Assembly (NCBI RefSeq): GCF_000967865.1 | Contig: NZ_JXRU01000028.1 | Coordinates: 1 to 64,000 of the forward strand | Length of the DNA: 64,000 nt | From: Microbacterium sp. SA39 | GTDB taxonomy: Bacteria > Actinomycetota > Actinomycetes > Actinomycetales > Microbacteriaceae | Reading direction: 5' to 3' | Part shown: one piece after another, positions 4,618 through 46,086 of the stretch | Numbering within the stretch: position 1 is the first letter of the stretch | Layout of the letters: the number at the start of each line of letters is the position of its first letter | Position numbers and translations under genes: made by a program | Notes under the pieces: generated by a model | Told to the model about the DNA's origin: nothing | The model's database searches: none | What the model saw: only the letters and a program-made list of their open reading frames with translations

Positions 4618-4731
4618 CGTTTCGTCTCGGTCGCTGCGCTCCCTCGCTCAACGACCGGGGTGTCGGTCGCTGCGCTCCCTCGCTCAACGACCGGGGTGTC
4701 GGTCGCTGCGCTCCCTCGCTCAACGACGGGA
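4618..4731. repeat. Family A repeat array with three tandem 36-bp units
   Basis: A CGTTTCGTCTC arm at 4618 is followed by three head-to-tail copies of a unit beginning GGTCGCTGCGCTCCCTCGCT at 4629, 4665 and 4701. The period is 36 bp and the third copy is cut short. It separates mmsB from the enoyl-CoA hydratase gene, and the mmsB stop codon lies inside the third copy. This is an expanded version of the family A element. Confidence 0.9.
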
Positions 4732-6847: not shown

Positions 6848-6913
6848 TGCGTTTCGTCTCGCGGAGACCGGTGCTGAGCGAGCGAAGGAAGTCGAAGTGT
6901 CGCTCAACGACCG
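6848..6913. repeat. Family A palindromic repeat
   Basis: The sequence opens with GCGTTTCGTCTCGCGGAGAC and ends with GTCGCTCAACGACCGG. It lies between mmsA and the acyl-CoA dehydrogenase gene and does not overlap either. It could act as a processing or attenuation hairpin within the valine operon. Confidence 0.75.
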
Positions 6914-13093: not shown

Positions 13094-14398
13094 ATGGCCC
13101 TGGTTCTCGGCGTCGACTCGTCGACGCAGTCGTGCAAGGTCATCGTGGCGGATGCCACGACCGGCGCGGTCGTCCGGACCGGTCGCGCCTCCCATCCCGA
13201 CGGCACCGCGGTCGCCCCCGACGCCTGGTGGAGTGCGCTGCAGACGGCCATCGCTGACGCGGGCGGACTCGACGACATCGAGGCCTGGGCCATCGGCGGC
13301 CAGCAGCACGGCATGGTCGCGCTCGACTCGTCGGGCGCGGTCATCCGCGATGCGCTGCTGTGGAACGACACGCGATCGGCGGATGCCGCGGCAGACCTCG
13401 TCGCCGAGTTCGGAGCGCAGGAGCTCGCCGATCGCACCGGCGTCGTGCCCGTGGCATCCTTCACGATCTCGAAGGTGCGCTGGCTGCGCGACGCCGAACC
13501 CGAGAACGCGGCGCGGGTGGCGGCGATCGCCCTGCCGCACGACTGGCTGACCTGGCGTCTGCGAGGGTACGGCCCCGAAGGTGCGTCACCGCTCGGGCCG
13601 GTGCTCGAGGAACTCGTCACGGACCGCTCGGACGCCTCGGGCACGGGGTACTGGAATCCCGCGAGCGGCGAGTACGACCGCGAACTGTTCGTCGCCGCTC
13701 TCGGGCACGACGCGGTGCTGCCGCGGGTGCTCGGCGCCGCCGAGTCGGTGACGGATGCCGCGGGCCGGCTGGTGGCGCCCGGCGCCGGTGACAACGCCGC
13801 GGCAGCCCTCGGCCTCGGCGCAGGGCCCGGCGACGTCGTCGTGTCGATCGGCACCAGCGGCACGGTCTTCGCGGTGAGCGAGACTCCGTCGACCGACGCC
13901 TCGGGAATCATCGCGGGCTTCGCGTCGGCGGACGGCCACTTCCTCCCGCTGGTCTGCACGCTCAATGCGGCGCGGGTGCTCGACGTGACGGCATCCCTTC
14001 TCGGCGTCGATCACGAGGAGCTCAGCCGTCTGGCCCTCGCCGCGCCCTCGGGTGCCGCGGGGCTCGCGCTCGTCCCCTACTTCGAGGGTGAGCGCACGCC
14101 GAACCTGCCCGACGCGACCGCGACGCTCAGCGGCATGACGCTCGCCTCGACGACGCGCGAGAACCTCGCGCGGGCCGCGGTCGAGGGGATGCTGTCCGGC
14201 CTCGGCGCCGGCCTCGATGCCCTGCGCGAGGCGGGAGTGCCGCTGCGGCGCGCGCTGCTGATCGGCGGCGGCGCGCAGTCGGAGGCCGTGCGGGCCATCG
14301 CCCCCGAGGTGCTCGGCATCCCGGTCGAGGTGCCGGCATCCGAGGAGTACGTCGCGCTCGGCGCTGCCCGCCAGGCGGCATCCGTCCTCATCGGCTGA
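13094..14398 (+). CDS. xylB: Xylulokinase
   Basis: A 434-residue FGGY kinase that phosphorylates D-xylulose to feed the pentose phosphate pathway. The N-terminal ATP/phosphate motif is [14 protein letters not shown], and the substrate region is [11 protein letters not shown] plus WNDTRS. The hinge D-G-D-N motif appears as [11 protein letters not shown], followed by [10 protein letters not shown] and [21 protein letters not shown]. It is about 50 residues shorter than E. coli XylB, which is usual for the actinobacterial form. It is co-transcribed with xylA. A family D palindrome follows and may end the transcript. Confidence 0.95.
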
Positions 14399-14403
14399 CG
14401 GTT

Positions 14404-14488
14404 CCGGTCGCAGTTGCTGCCGTCTCTCCCGGTTCCGGTCGCAGTAGCTGCCGTCTCGCGACGCGCGGGACGGCAGCAACTGCGACCA
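14404..14488. repeat. Intergenic palindrome, family D copy 1
   Basis: Two direct copies of a left arm (CGGTCGCAGTTGCTGCCGTC at 14405 and CGGTCGCAGTAGCTGCCGTC at about 14436) face one right arm GACGGCAGCAACTGCGACC at about 14469-14487. It lies between convergent xylB and the aldose 1-epimerase gene, so it could terminate both. Confidence 0.8.
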
Positions 14489-14505
14489 GAGGGGCGCGCT
14501 GCCGG

Positions 14506-15492
14506 CTACACCGCCCGGATGCGCCAGCTCGCGACGTGCGACGCCCCGGGCTCGAGAGTCACGAGATCGACACCGGAGTTGAAGGCATCCGGCGGGCAGG
14601 TCATCGGCTCGACCGCCAAGCCGATCCGACTCGTCGACGGCTCGGCCGGGGTGTCGGCCGTGTGCACCTGCACCCAGGGGCACCGCTCGTCGAACGAGAT
14701 GGCCACCCCGGTGCCGTCGGCTGCCGTCACTCTCACCTCGGCGATGCCGTCGGTACGATCGAGACCCGTGAAGGCGTGGTCGATGAAGACGTCGTCGATG
14801 CGGCGAGCCGTGCGGAAATCCCACTCCGGATGCTGCGACACCGGCTCGACCGCGACCGGGCTGAGCCGATCGGGTGTGACGGTCAGGACCTCGGATGCCG
14901 GGAGCAGGAGAGTCCACGCGTTGACGCGTTTCGTCACTTCGACTCGCTGCGCTCGCTCAGTACGGCGCTCGTCGCTGCGTTCCTTGCTCAACGACCGGGC
15001 GCCCGCCACGAGATAGGGGTGCGGGCCGGTGCCCCAGGGCGCAGCATCCGCTCCGATGTTGTTCGCCGTGACGGTCTGCTGCAGGCCGTCGGCGTCGAGA
15101 CGGTACTCGACCTCGACCTCGACACGGAACGGGTAGCCGGTCTGCGGCTCGATCACGGCGGCGAGCACGATGCGGTCGTCGAGCACCAGGCGGTCGGCGA
15201 ACTCCGTCCAGGCGAGCAGGCCGTGCAGCGCCTGGCCGCGCTCCGGCTCGGTCAGCGGCAGCTGGTACTCGACGCCGGCGAAGCGGTAGGTCCCGTCGAC
15301 GATGCGGTTCGGCCAGGGCGCAAGCGTCGCGCCGCGGTACGCCGGACGCACCTCATCCGCCTCGAACGGCACGACCAGATCGCGGCCGTCGAAGGTCAGC
15401 GACCGCAGCGTGGCGCCGACGCTCGCGATCGCCGCCTCGTACCCGTGGGCGGCGATCCGCAGCTGGCGGCCGGAGCGGGCCTCGACGACCAC
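14506..15492 (-). CDS. Aldose 1-epimerase with an in-frame repeat insertion
   Basis: A 328-residue mutarotase-family protein. Family landmarks are GATLAPWPNRIVDGTYRF, with the Asn-Arg pair, at about 55-71, QALHGLLAW with the catalytic His at about 88-95, TGPHPYLVAG at 155-164 and the C-terminal FDERCPWVQVHTAD. The start is GTG 15492, 2 bases after the araA stop, making it the last gene of the araDBA operon. Residues about 166-189 (beginning RSLSKERSDERRTE) do not belong to the fold. They are the translation of a family A palindrome lying between the GPHPY strand and the following WTL strand. The frame stays open, so the enzyme may tolerate the loop. Confidence 0.88.
   Translation of the reverse strand: MVVEARSGRQLRIAAHGYEAAIASVGATLRSLTFDGRDLVVPFEADEVRPAYRGATLAPWPNRIVDGTYRFAGVEYQLPLTEPERGQALHGLLAWTEFADRLVLDDRIVLAAVIEPQTGYPFRVEVEVEYRLDADGLQQTVTANNIGADAAPWGTGPHPYLVAGARSLSKERSDERRTERAQRVEVTKRVNAWTLLLPASEVLTVTPDRLSPVAVEPVSQHPEWDFRTARRIDDVFIDHAFTGLDRTDGIAEVRVTAADGTGVAISFDERCPWVQVHTADTPAEPSTSRIGLAVEPMTCPPDAFNSGVDLVTLEPGASHVASWRIRAV
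14927..14999. repeat. Family A repeat inserted inside a coding sequence
   Basis: It runs from CGTTTCGTCACTTCGACTCG to GTTCCTTGCTCAACGACCGG, wholly within the aldose 1-epimerase gene. The insertion is a multiple of three and has no stop in the host frame. It encodes about 24 residues of Arg/Glu/Ser-rich sequence. Confidence 0.9.
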
Positions 15493-17029: not shown

Positions 17030-17109
17030 TCGGTCGTTGAGCGAGGAGCGAAGCGACGAGACGAAACGTGGTGCGGCGTTTCGTCTCGCTACGCTCGCTC
17101 AACGAACGG
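17030..17109. repeat. Family A palindrome between araB and araA
   Basis: A forward arm (GGTCGTTGAGCGAGGAGCGA, ending GACGAAACG) faces its reverse arm (CGTTTCGTCTCGCTACGCTC, ending AACGAACGG), a near-perfect long hairpin. The right half provides the last five codons and TAG stop of araB. Confidence 0.85.
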
Positions 17110-30298: not shown

Positions 30299-30371
30299 AC
30301 GGTCGTTGAGCGAGGAGCGAAGCGACGAGACGAAACGCGCGTTTCGTCTCGCTCCGCTCGCTCAACGACCG
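30299..30371. repeat. Family A palindrome between prpB and prpC
   Basis: GGTCGTTGAGCGAGGAGCGA (ending GACGAAACG) and its near-perfect reverse complement stand back to back around GCG. The right end overlaps the last codons and TGA stop of prpB. Confidence 0.9.
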
Positions 30372-31267
30372 GTGTCGAGTGTGAAGTTGAAGACTCCCGA
30401 GTCGAAGTGGTTGTACGACTCGTAGTCGATGAGGTCATAGAGATCGGCGCGGTGCTGCATCTCGCCGAGCTTCGAGGTCAGGTGCCCCTCTTCGTTCAGA
30501 GTATCGAGCGCACGGCCGGATGCCCCCATCGAGATGCGCAACAGCGACACAGGCCAGATGACGAGGTTCACCCCGGCATCGCGCAGCTGGTCGACCGAGA
30601 AGAGCTCGCTCTTGCCGAACTCGGTCATGTTCGCGAGGACCGGCACGTCGAGCGCGTTGGCCATCGCCTCGAACTCTTCCAGGGTGCGCATGGCCTCGGG
30701 GAAGACGGCATCCGCTCCGGCATCCACCAGCGCCTTGGCGCGATCGATCGCGACGTCGAGCCCCTCGATCGCGCGGATGTCGGTGCGCGCCATGATCTGG
30801 AAGTTCGGGTCGCGGCGGGCGTCGGCGGCGGCACGGATGCGCTTGATCGCGGTGTTCTCGTCGACGACGCTCTTGCCGTCGAGGTGCCCGCAGCGCTTGG
30901 GGTTGATCTGGTCCTCGATGTGGGTGCCGGCGAGACCGGCATCCTCGAGCTCCTGGATCGTGCGGGCCACGTTCATCGGCTCGCCGAAGCCGGTGTCGGC
31001 GTCGACGATCGCGGGGAGGTCGGTCATCCGCGCGATCTGCTTCGCGCGGCCGGCGACTTCGGTGAGCGTGGTGAGGCCGATGTCGGGCAACCCGAGGTCG
31101 GCGGCGAGGACGGCGCCCGAGATGTAGACCCCGTCGAAGCCCTTCTGCTCGATGAGGCGGGCGCTCAGCGGATTGAACGCCCCGGGGAACCGCAGCAGCT
31201 CGCCGCTCGCCAGCCGTTCGCGGAACAGCCGCCGCTTCTCTGCCGGGGTGGTGGTGGAGTACAGCAT
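30362..31267 (-). CDS. prpB: 2-methylisocitrate lyase
   Basis: A 301-residue isocitrate-lyase-superfamily enzyme cleaving 2-methylisocitrate to pyruvate and succinate. Catalytic KRCGH is present in EDQINPKRCGHLDGK at about residue 125. Mg-binding residues lie in VDADTGFGEPMNVART and in ARTDIRAIEGL. The C-terminus FTLDTGR ends in the family A repeat: GGTCGTTGA provides Gly-Arg-stop. It is the third gene of the gntR-prpD-prpB-prpC transcript. Confidence 0.95.
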   Translation of the reverse strand: MLYSTTTPAEKRRLFRERLASGELLRFPGAFNPLSARLIEQKGFDGVYISGAVLAADLGLPDIGLTTLTEVAGRAKQIARMTDLPAIVDADTGFGEPMNVARTIQELEDAGLAGTHIEDQINPKRCGHLDGKSVVDENTAIKRIRAAADARRDPNFQIMARTDIRAIEGLDVAIDRAKALVDAGADAVFPEAMRTLEEFEAMANALDVPVLANMTEFGKSELFSVDQLRDAGVNLVIWPVSLLRISMGASGRALDTLNEEGHLTSKLGEMQHRADLYDLIDYESYNHFDSGVFNFTLDTGR

Positions 31268-31286: not shown

Positions 31287-31370
31287 CAGGGCGTTTCGTC
31301 TCGCTTCGCTCGCTCAACGAGCGAAGCCTCCGGTCGTTGAGCGAGGAGCGAAGCGACGAGACGAAACGCC
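31287..31370. repeat. Family A palindrome between prpD and prpB
   Basis: Here the arms are in the opposite order from the prpB/prpC copy: CGTTTCGTCTCGCTTCGCTC (ending AACGAGCG) first, then GGTCGTTGAGCGAGGAGCGA (ending GACGAAACG). It does not overlap either gene. Confidence 0.85.
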
Positions 31371-31373
31371 GCA

Positions 31374-32900
31374 TCAGAACAGGCCCTTCGGGGCATCGGC
31401 CGACTCGAGCAGCCCGGGCTTCGCCACGATCGACAGCTCGGCGACCTCGGCGGCCGTCAGCTCGGGGAGGCGCTGGACGAGTTCCAGGAACCGCTCGATC
31501 TCAGCCGGTTCGAGCACGGGCTCGGCCAGCAGACGGAACTTCGCGATGTAGTTGTCCCGCGCGAACGGACGGGCACCGAGCGGATGCGCGTCGGCCACGG
31601 CGATCTCGTCGATCACGGTCGTGCCGTCGGTCAGGCGGAACTCGACGCGACCGCCGAATGCCTTCACGTCGGGGTCCTCGGAGTGGTAGCGGCGCGTCCA
31701 CTCGGCATCCTCGGCCGTGGTGATCTTGTGCCACAGTGCGACGGTGTCGGCGCGGCCGGCACGCGACGGCGCGTAGGAGTCGACGTGGTGCCAGCCGCCG
31801 TCCTGCAGCGCGACCGCGAAGATGTACGGGATCGAGTGGTCGAGGGTCTCGCGCGATGCCGTCGGATCGTACTTCTGCGGGTCGTTCGCGCCCGAGCCGA
31901 TCACATAGTGGGTGTGGTGGCTCGTGTGGAGCACGATGGCCTCGATGTTCGCGGGATCGCGGAGCGACGGGTTTTCGGTTCCGAGCTTGCGCGCGAGGTC
32001 GATCCACGCCTGGGCCTGGTACTCGGCCGAGTGCTCCTTCGTGTAAGAGTCGAGGATCGCGCGCTTCGGCTCGCCCGCGGCAGGCAGCGGCACCTCGTAC
32101 GCGGCATCCTTCCCGTCGAGCATCCAGGCGATCACGCCGTCTTCGCCCTCGTAGATCGGGGCGGGGCTGGTCTGCCCGCGCATCGCCCGGTCGACCGCTT
32201 CGACGGCCATCTTGCCGGCGAAGGCCGGGGCGTGCGCCTTCCAGGTCGAGATCTCGCCCTTGCGGCTCTGCCGGGTGGCGGTCGTGGTGTGCAGCCCCTG
32301 GCCGACCGCTTGGTAGATGGTCTCGACGTCGAGCCCGAGCAGGGTGCCGATGCCGGCTGCGGCCGACGGGCCGAGGTGCGCGACGTGGTCGATCTTGTGC
32401 TTGTGCAGGCAGATCGCGCGCACGAGGTCCATCTGGATCTCGTAGCCGGTCGCGATGCCGCGGACGAGCGCCCGACCGTCGGCACCGACGTGCTGCGCCA
32501 CCGCGAGGATCGGCGGGATGTTGTCGCCCGGGTGCGAGTACTCCGCGGCGAGGAAGGTGTCGTGGTAGTCGAGCTCGCGCACGGCCACGCCGTTCGCCCA
32601 CGCCGCCCACTCGGGGCTCGTGCGGTGGTCGAGGGCCGCGCCGAAGAGGTTCGCGCCCGCGCCTCCGGTGGAGACGGGGTGGCTGAACGCCTGCGCGCGG
32701 GCCGCGTTGATGGGCGCACGCGTGAGGGATGCCGCGGCGACGGACGCGTTGTCGATGATGCGGTTGATGATCATGTCGACGACGGGCTGCTCGACCTCGA
32801 CGGGATCGGCGGCGACCTCGGCGATCTTCCAGGCGAGCTGGTCTTCACGGGCGAGGTTCTCGTCGCTGCGGTGCACGCGGACGTGGTGTGTGACGGTCAT
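31374..32900 (-). CDS. prpD: 2-methylcitrate dehydratase
   Basis: A 508-residue MmgE/PrpD family enzyme. Visible parts are [42 protein letters not shown] with [23 protein letters not shown], and [26 protein letters not shown]. The C-terminal half has [19 protein letters not shown] and [16 protein letters not shown]. It dehydrates 2-methylcitrate to 2-methyl-cis-aconitate. Its ATG overlaps the gntR stop by four bases, which couples it to the regulator. Confidence 0.95.
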
Positions 32901-33625
32901 GAGACTCTTTCGGTCGTTGAGCGAGGGGGGTTCGTTGAGCGAGCCGCAGGCGAGACGAAACGCAGAGACGAAACGTGTTCAGGGAGCGAATCGAGGATGC
33001 CGGTGAGCGCATTGTGCAGGTGCACGTGCGTGGCGTGGGCGGCGAGGTCACCGTCGCGAGCGGCGACTGCTTCGGCGATCGTGCGGTGCTCCGCGGCGGA
33101 TGCCGCGAGTCGCGCGGGCTTGTCCCGGGCCATCCGCCGCACCCGCACGAGATGGGTGCGCACGGTGCGGAGCGCCGAGGCGATGTAGTCGTTGGCGACG
33201 GCCGCATCGAGGGCGGCGTCGAAGCGGGCGATGAGAGCGTAGTAGGCGTCGCGCCCCTCGACGGCGTCGAGGTTCACGTGCGCGAACTCCTCGGCGAGGG
33301 CGGCGAAGAGCTGGGCGTCGCCGCGCGCGGCGGCGAGGCGGGCGGACGTCTCCTCGAGCGCGCGGCGGATCTCGAACAGCGAGCGGATGTCGTCGGCATC
33401 GAGATCCGCGACGACGGTGATCCGCGGCGACTGCTGCACGACGAGGCCGTCGGCGATGAGGCGGCGCAGGGCCTCGCGCAGCGGAGTGCGGCTCACGCCG
33501 AGGCGGGCGGCCTGCTCGACCTCGCCGAGCACCGTGCCGGCCTCGAGCGATCCGGACTGGATGCCGTCGAGCAGAGCAGCGTAGGCGCGATCACTCGCGG
33601 ACGTGCGCTCGACGGAGAGGGTCAT
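32897..33625 (-). CDS. GntR/FCD regulator of the methylcitrate operon
   Basis: A 242-residue GntR protein. The winged helix runs from [21 protein letters not shown] through [27 protein letters not shown], and the all-helical FCD effector domain has [16 protein letters not shown] and the metal-binding His pattern near [11 protein letters not shown]. The domain should end near [10 protein letters not shown]. The last about 25 residues (beginning [14 protein letters not shown]) are encoded by a family A repeat. It is first in the prp operon, with two GTATAC sites upstream of it, so autoregulation is likely. The inducer is probably a methylcitrate-cycle intermediate. Confidence 0.9.
32911..32976. 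repeat. Family A repeat forming the gntR 3' end
   Basis: It contains two TTCGTTGAGCGAG-type arms and two GAGACGAAACG arms. It lies inside the regulator gene and replaces its natural C-terminus, with the stop coming just after the repeat. Confidence 0.8.
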
Positions 33626-33633
33626 GTCATTAG

Positions 33634-33641
33634 TGTATACA
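33634..33641. promoter_or_regulatory. GntR operator, proximal
   Basis: TGTATACA lies 9 bases upstream of the gntR start, within the AT-rich run TTAGTGTATACATAAATTGA. GTATAC cores are usual for FCD-type GntR operators. Confidence 0.65.
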
Positions 33642-33686
33642 TAAATTGATTGAAACGGAGCCGAAGTCGACCTGAGCAACACCCTC

Positions 33687-33694
33687 GTATACAT
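33687..33694. promoter_or_regulatory. GntR operator, distal
   Basis: A second GTATACAT, in CTCGTATACATTGCC, lies 53 bp further upstream than the first. The spacing is close to five helical turns, which would allow cooperative binding. Confidence 0.6.
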
Positions 33695-33759
33695 TGCCGA
33701 CGTGACCCGCCCTGGCGGGTGCCCCAATCACGGGCAACACGGTCAGACGATCTTGCGGG

Positions 33760-46030: not shown

Positions 46031-46086
46031 GCGACACTTCGACTCGCTTCGCTCGCTCAGTGCGGGTCTTCGCGAGACGAAACGCC
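46022..46086. repeat. Family A repeat after the hydrolase gene
   Basis: CGGTCGTTGAGCGACACTTC, then GACTCGCTTCGCTCGCTCAG and GAGACGAAACG. It supplies the last codons (Gly-Arg) and the TGA of the preceding gene. Confidence 0.85.

Follow-up and report, generated by a model that had tools for sequence, protein, structure and literature searches.

In-frame copies of a short interspersed repeat in an aldose 1-epimerase loop and in other conserved genes of Microbacterium

The RPEs of Rickettsia are short multi-copy repeats, some of which lie in frame inside conserved genes (PMC10969869; PMC3733652). In-frame RPEs are reviewed in PMC10969869, and some RPE-bearing proteins are reported as expressed in the same two sources. 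PMC3733652 also describes REPs within ORFs of R. conorii, O. terrae, Thauera, Xanthomonas and others, REPs at about the same recB site in X. campestris and X. oryzae, and GTAG REPs that often supply stop codons. Coding MITEs are non-autonomous and can form in-frame fusions with genes of the host (PMC10969869). In-frame REPs are already known in Rickettsia and others; the point of interest of the repeat described here is its recurrence at the same loops.

This repeat, which we call FAM1, lies in frame inside an aldose 1-epimerase gene of Microbacterium sp. SA39, in the 64,000-nucleotide stretch of contig NZ_JXRU01000028.1 that was analysed as a whole (the window). Like RPEs, it has in-frame copies in conserved genes, five in this case, with copy-free alleles in relatives. 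Unlike RPEs, it occurs in another phylum, measures about 33-75 bp, has a non-palindromic coding copy in the window and shares one loop with a second repeat family, FAM2. The original prediction had drawn the Rickettsia parallel, which is apt as a comparable in-frame insertion, the likeness being one of description. Like the GTAG/CGTC REPs of PMC3733652, FAM1 has units of 20-40 bp, intergenic inverted pairs, some copies inside ORFs and some that supply stop codons; unlike them, it recurs in five gene families, and its carriers, in all 16 genomes tested, are without a Y1 transposase gene. The search for this transposase (RAYT, PF01797) gave 0 of 16 FAM1-carrier genomes at E 1 and was positive in 10 of 14 controls. 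At the copies, the flanks have diverged too far for a target-site duplication to be recognised. In the literature searched, with most subscription journals outside its coverage, no report of the FAM1 or FAM2 letters or, by title and opening of the abstract, of such Microbacterium repeats was found, in line with the earlier statement for FAM1, and the repeat-coded peptide words did not occur in the papers checked; as a sign that no report exists, this is weak.

The epimerase (mutarotase) gene occupies 14506..15492 on the minus strand, starts with GTG and encodes 328 aa matching PF01263 (E 5.6e-39); the best fold match of its product is 3nre (TM 0.78 by query length). The original prediction of about 24 residues of repeat inserted in frame after GPHPYLVAG was borne out. 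By repeat comparison and translation, a FAM1 compound repeat at 14926..14999 (minus strand) is read in frame as RSLSKERSDERRTERAQRVEVTKR. It supplies 24 codons of repeat DNA, CGG..CGC in the sense direction (window 14926-14997, minus strand), plus two element bases at 14998-14999, and these codons correspond to residues 165-188 of the product, numbered without the first codon. Compared with the short loop of homologues, the net gain is about 22 residues. The insert-bearing frame is open and the protein is intact to either side. The insert begins eight residues past the His of GPHPYL; the HPY codons (15013..15021, minus strand; residues 157-159), placed by alignment to GTGWHPYF of 3nre, stand directly ahead of the loop. 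By this alignment, the His is probably a catalytic residue, as in galactose mutarotase. An AlphaFold2 model of the epimerase (49 sequences) had a mean pLDDT of 88.9 and a pTM of 0.89. The blocks covering residues 161-190, which contain the insert, had pLDDT values of 72, 50 and 61, and the adjoining blocks 95 and 98; the insert is predicted to be an uncertain excursion on a confident fold.

Gene calling by codon usage was dropped for the window, as its self-training drifted antisense and put the epimerase on the wrong strand. Between the epimerase and a plus-strand gene ending at 14398, the interval 14399-14505 contains CCGGTCGCAGTAGCTGCCGTC-like sequence opposite GACGGCAGCAACTGCGACC, a possible shared terminator.

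The insert had been described as palindromic, which did not hold. The inserted copy has a head-to-tail arrangement, with a folding z of 0.20 as RNA and -0.17 as DNA, and an inverted-repeat search over 14880-15040 (161 bases) found none; with no terminal inverted repeat found over this interval, the copy may also differ from MITEs. Three inverted pairs elsewhere in the window fold strongly (z -5.83, -7.10 and -7.23). Among the other coding copies discussed below, z was -0.50 for that of an ABC protein, -0.85 for that of a serine dehydratase and 0.79 for an epimerase insert of another genome (G022; part of the insert, with flank); it was lower in an FAA/RraA protein (-2.18) and in an FAD enzyme, where the copy is an inverted pair (-4.42). 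Two compound copies outside verified genes (L004 and L155) did not fold either (z 0.05 and 0.31), so absence of folding is a property of the head-to-tail arrangement and does not set coding copies apart. Three of the four 73-bp head-to-tail copies in the source genome are in frame within genes. We do not claim the 73-bp form as a coding-adapted variant: on the strand and at the lengths tested, 14 of 28 copies, the ABC copy of the source genome among them, had no spanning frame, and the remainder count as candidates at most.

The FAM1 unit is approximately CCGGTCGTTGAGCGAGGAGCGCAGCGACGAGACGAAACGC. Coding units start with CCGGTCGTT and end with GACGAAACGC, ends that were read in coding units and that bear on the question of a GTAG/CGTC tag. 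Many unit variants seem to carry an extra G and an extra C jointly, GAGGAGCG..GCGACGAG versus GAGGGAGCG..GCGACCGAG, which hints at a paired constraint.

A fuzzy motif match found, besides the inserted copy, seven further FAM1 copies in the window, the number given in the original prediction; that all seven are intergenic proved wrong for two of them. The FAM1-like copy at 32934..32962 codes part of the C-terminal tail (32897-32965) of the minus-strand ORF 32897-33727, which resembles a GntR-type regulator. The inverted pair at 30305..30365, a strong hairpin, includes the stop codon and the final residues of the minus-strand ORF 30362-31267, which resembles a methylisocitrate lyase. Two other inverted pairs with strong hairpins lie upstream of araA (17036..17102) and between two minus-strand ORFs (31292..31368). 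In two minus-strand frames, FAM1 precedes a domain: an array of three units (4618..4722, minus strand) stands ahead of an enoyl-CoA hydratase domain, and a half-unit (6874..6899, plus strand) stands about 25 codons ahead of an acyl-CoA dehydrogenase N-terminal domain. A second half-unit (46032..46065, minus strand) precedes the ABM domain encoded by a plus-strand frame.

A search of the source genome with the inserted copy gave at least 61 FAM1 matches at E <=10, 43 of these at E <=2.8e-4, and at least 40 clusters with one of the 43 in each; these counts are lower bounds, 40 of 110 candidates having been scored and two window copies missed. FAM1 is mainly intergenic, often as inverted pairs, as judged from open frames and Pfam and not from full gene models. 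The unit pattern was present in 46 of 149 genus genomes (reversed control, 0). FAM2 is a second, unrelated repeat (CCTTCGACAGGCTCAGGGACC; peptide PSTGSGT), and 83 places in the source genome lie within two mismatches of TTCGACARGCTCAGGG, versus 9 for the reversed control. Rfam at gathering thresholds gave no match in the window, and a plasmid collection gave one Microbacterium plasmid with a 46-base match.

The epimerase was then compared with its relatives. A match was found in 53 of 58 relatives and, at E <=1e-75, in 79 of 295 genus genomes. Loops were read in the best matches and in 20 of the next (n = 73, all Microbacterium, the window's epimerase included); because the query carries the insert, the ranking favours carriers, and the counts out of 73 are not rates. 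Contrary to what would be seen if every homologue carried these residues, most of the relatives read lack the insert: 51 of the 73 loops have three or four residues after GPHPYLVAG (41 and 10, respectively). FAM1 was present in four loops, those of the window and of genomes G022, G005 and G089, and the FAM1 unit pattern matches these four genomes 27, 6, 11 and 3 times. Six loops contain FAM2, another has a FAM2 copy interrupted by other DNA, and in 11 the 6-22 residues correspond to no recognised repeat. Among 80 named loci (L279 was unparsed), several of which are identical in sequence to members of the set of 73, the loop had at most three residues and no repeat in 50; FAM1 was found in the epimerase loop of Microbacterium sp. 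K24 and M. hydrocarbonoxydans SA35, and FAM2 in five loci, including Microbacterium sp. A20; SA35 and A20 are additions to the carriers among the 73. In M. bovistercoris NEAU-LLE (L070 / L247), FAM2 is split by about 60 bases, and a close relative (L077) has a plain copy.

We considered the possibility that the insert is an assembly error or lies in a chimeric contig, the genome being a 39-contig draft. Yet the frame is open with intact protein to either side, and other assemblies have inserts at the same site with different letters. In G022 and G005, the same codon holds related inserts on contigs of more than 3.6 Mb, which makes an error unlikely; overall, we regard this explanation as extremely improbable.

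For the gene tree, the loop columns were removed and 54 of the 73 rows were used, the 19 more distant ones being left out; L071, with a loop of four residues, was labelled 'other insert'. FAM1 (four rows) required 4 changes on the tree, versus a mean of 3.9 with shuffled labels, and FAM2 (seven rows, including the split one) 6 changes, versus 6.7. Neither group was clearly clustered, and with four rows the FAM1 scatter says little. A single clade was rejected for FAM1 (p 0.0075) and for FAM2 (p 4.4e-6), and more than one origin is supported for each on the epimerase gene tree. Three FAM1 pairs that were forced together were not rejected (p 0.06, 0.33 and 0.22), so four separate FAM1 gains do not follow. 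Tree neighbours can be unlike: L061 (FAM1) is next to L084 (short), L034 (FAM2) to L103 (short), and L033 (FAM1) to L062 (FAM2). Gene transfer between species could mimic this scatter, which would weaken the case for multiple origins, and the tree is compatible with gain or precise loss alike.

These alleles could also go back to a single insertion of a repeat in the ancestral loop, which later decayed, was exchanged for other repeats by recombination or was lost precisely in most species. The 11 loops with 6-22 unrecognised residues could be eroded copies, and the three unrejected pairs of FAM1 carriers are in keeping with sisterhood; yet FAM1 and FAM2 differ in sequence and have opposite orientation (shared words TGAGC and GTCGAA, by eye), and the 51 loops of three or four residues include close neighbours of carriers. 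We consider a single ancestral insertion unlikely. A preference of the insertion machinery for a sequence, e.g. CCCGG/ACGC-like words matching the FAM1 ends, might be suggested by the entry of both families at the same codon and by the short alleles L096 and L100, which read CCC GGA CGC, near the FAM1 ends joined. However, by eye, no common flanking word was seen in the other four genes that bear in-frame copies, and GC-rich DNA favours chance short matches; such targeting appears quite improbable.

In the source genome, 55 open frames span a FAM1 cluster, 29 of which were submitted to Pfam together with the window's epimerase. Including the latter, five in-frame copies had Pfam domains on either side. 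One is located between the halves of a double ABC ATPase; one between two SDH_alpha stretches of an L-serine dehydratase, the second stretch resuming at profile position 121 directly after it; one between the domains of an FAA-hydrolase/RraA protein; and one, with a Pfam match on each side, in a FAD_binding_2/Succ_DH_flav_C enzyme. The same loops are also occupied in relatives. In 30 matching serine dehydratase loci, we read FAM1 in L184, FAM2 plus FAM1 units in L191 and a reverse copy in L192. Fourteen genomes were searched for each of the other three families: the ABC loop has a copy in L299 and a worn copy in L298, the FAD enzyme loop has a longer array in L320, and the FAA/RraA loop has FAM1 in L328, L333, L335 and L337 and FAM2 in L334.

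In the five families (146 genes), repeat motifs were concentrated in the loops: they were found in the loop in 28 of 146 and elsewhere in 3, in a biased sample in which the families were chosen for their copies in the source genome, loci were ranked by an insert-bearing query, and motif thresholds were set after examples had been seen (the hits in L193 and L338 being weak). The loops make up 7,002 of 202,815 bases, and a reversed-motif control gave 0 hits in loops and 3 elsewhere. Two epimerases, L219 and L221, had been added for their inserts; the count is 26 of 144 without both and 21 of 139 when the five genes of the source genome are also removed. By family, the loop contained a motif in 12 of 75 epimerases, 5 of 30 serine dehydratases, 2 of 13 ABC proteins, 2 of 14 FAD enzymes and 7 of 14 FAA/RraA proteins. 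The hits beyond the loop were in L073, in L337 and, as a second hit, in L219.

FAM1 is read in the frame RS(L/S)... in five epimerases (SA35 included), three serine dehydratases, two ABC genes and three FAA/RraA genes, and in the PERAQRDE frame in two FAA/RraA genes; in the FAD enzyme it appears as RFVSLRSLN together with VVERGAQRRDET-like words. The PSTGSG(T/A) reading of FAM2 occurs in seven epimerases, L191 and L334. The main readings of both families are hydrophilic. The repeat peptides might have been selected because they serve as preformed linkers or as loops with a regulatory role, since FAM1 is mostly read in one hydrophilic form and FAM2 as the hydrophilic PSTGSG(T/A), although other repeat frames are open. 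Yet purifying selection against hydrophobic or stop-containing readings gives the same frame bias, and 118 of the 146 genes have no repeat motif in the loop; we find selection for function quite improbable. The hydrophilic readings fit a filter on what the protein can bear; that the peptide is useful does not follow.

A copy stands ahead of a domain in the frames L010, L137, L145, L021, L153, L014, L008 and L136, and L029 gave a weak DsbD match below the cut-off. In L010 (1501-1538), a FAM1 half-unit precedes the PALP domain by about 55-65 residues and, in another frame of the same strand, seemingly provides a stop codon for a possible upstream gene. In L021 (1501-1535), a half-unit is found directly ahead of a glycosyl hydrolase 65 domain; judged by eye, the last GTG of the half-unit might act as start codon. 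A FAM1 compound copy (L175, genome G308) is in frame near the N-terminus of an open frame of 563 residues, in a His-rich stretch.

The explanation that we favour, and consider probable, is that a FAM1 copy inserted into the epimerase gene and was kept as an in-frame hydrophilic peptide in a tolerant loop, which FAM1 and FAM2 have entered repeatedly. FAM1, a short interspersed REP-like repeat of Microbacterium, would have landed inside the gene, and the insert would have survived because its 24 codons are open in the frame of the gene and specify charged, hydrophilic residues at a site where changes in loop length are tolerated. FAM1 and the unrelated FAM2 would both have entered this loop, with multiple origins of each, and the same filter may account for the copies in the ABC-ATPase linker, the serine dehydratase, the FAA-hydrolase/RraA linker and the FAD-binding/succinate-dehydrogenase-type enzyme. 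We infer that gains outnumber losses and that the repeat-coded peptide is about neutral; translation and enzyme activity of the insert-bearing epimerase presumably continue.

More tentatively, and with more doubt than conviction, we suggest that the Microbacterium repeats, with no known transposase, could represent a constant reservoir of hydrophilic linkers. A few loops of conserved enzymes would then be entry hotspots in which different repeat families arrive, depart and accumulate, independently in many species, and this could be a main route by which the length of these loops changes. Related species have short, FAM1, FAM2 and stacked alleles of a single loop, and this allele series makes neutrality, RAYT-free arrival and repeat-driven evolution of loop length testable. 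Repeats may repeatedly supply new loops to working proteins, and Microbacterium would then be an actinobacterial genus where the conversion of spacer repeats into protein sequence is frequent enough for study.
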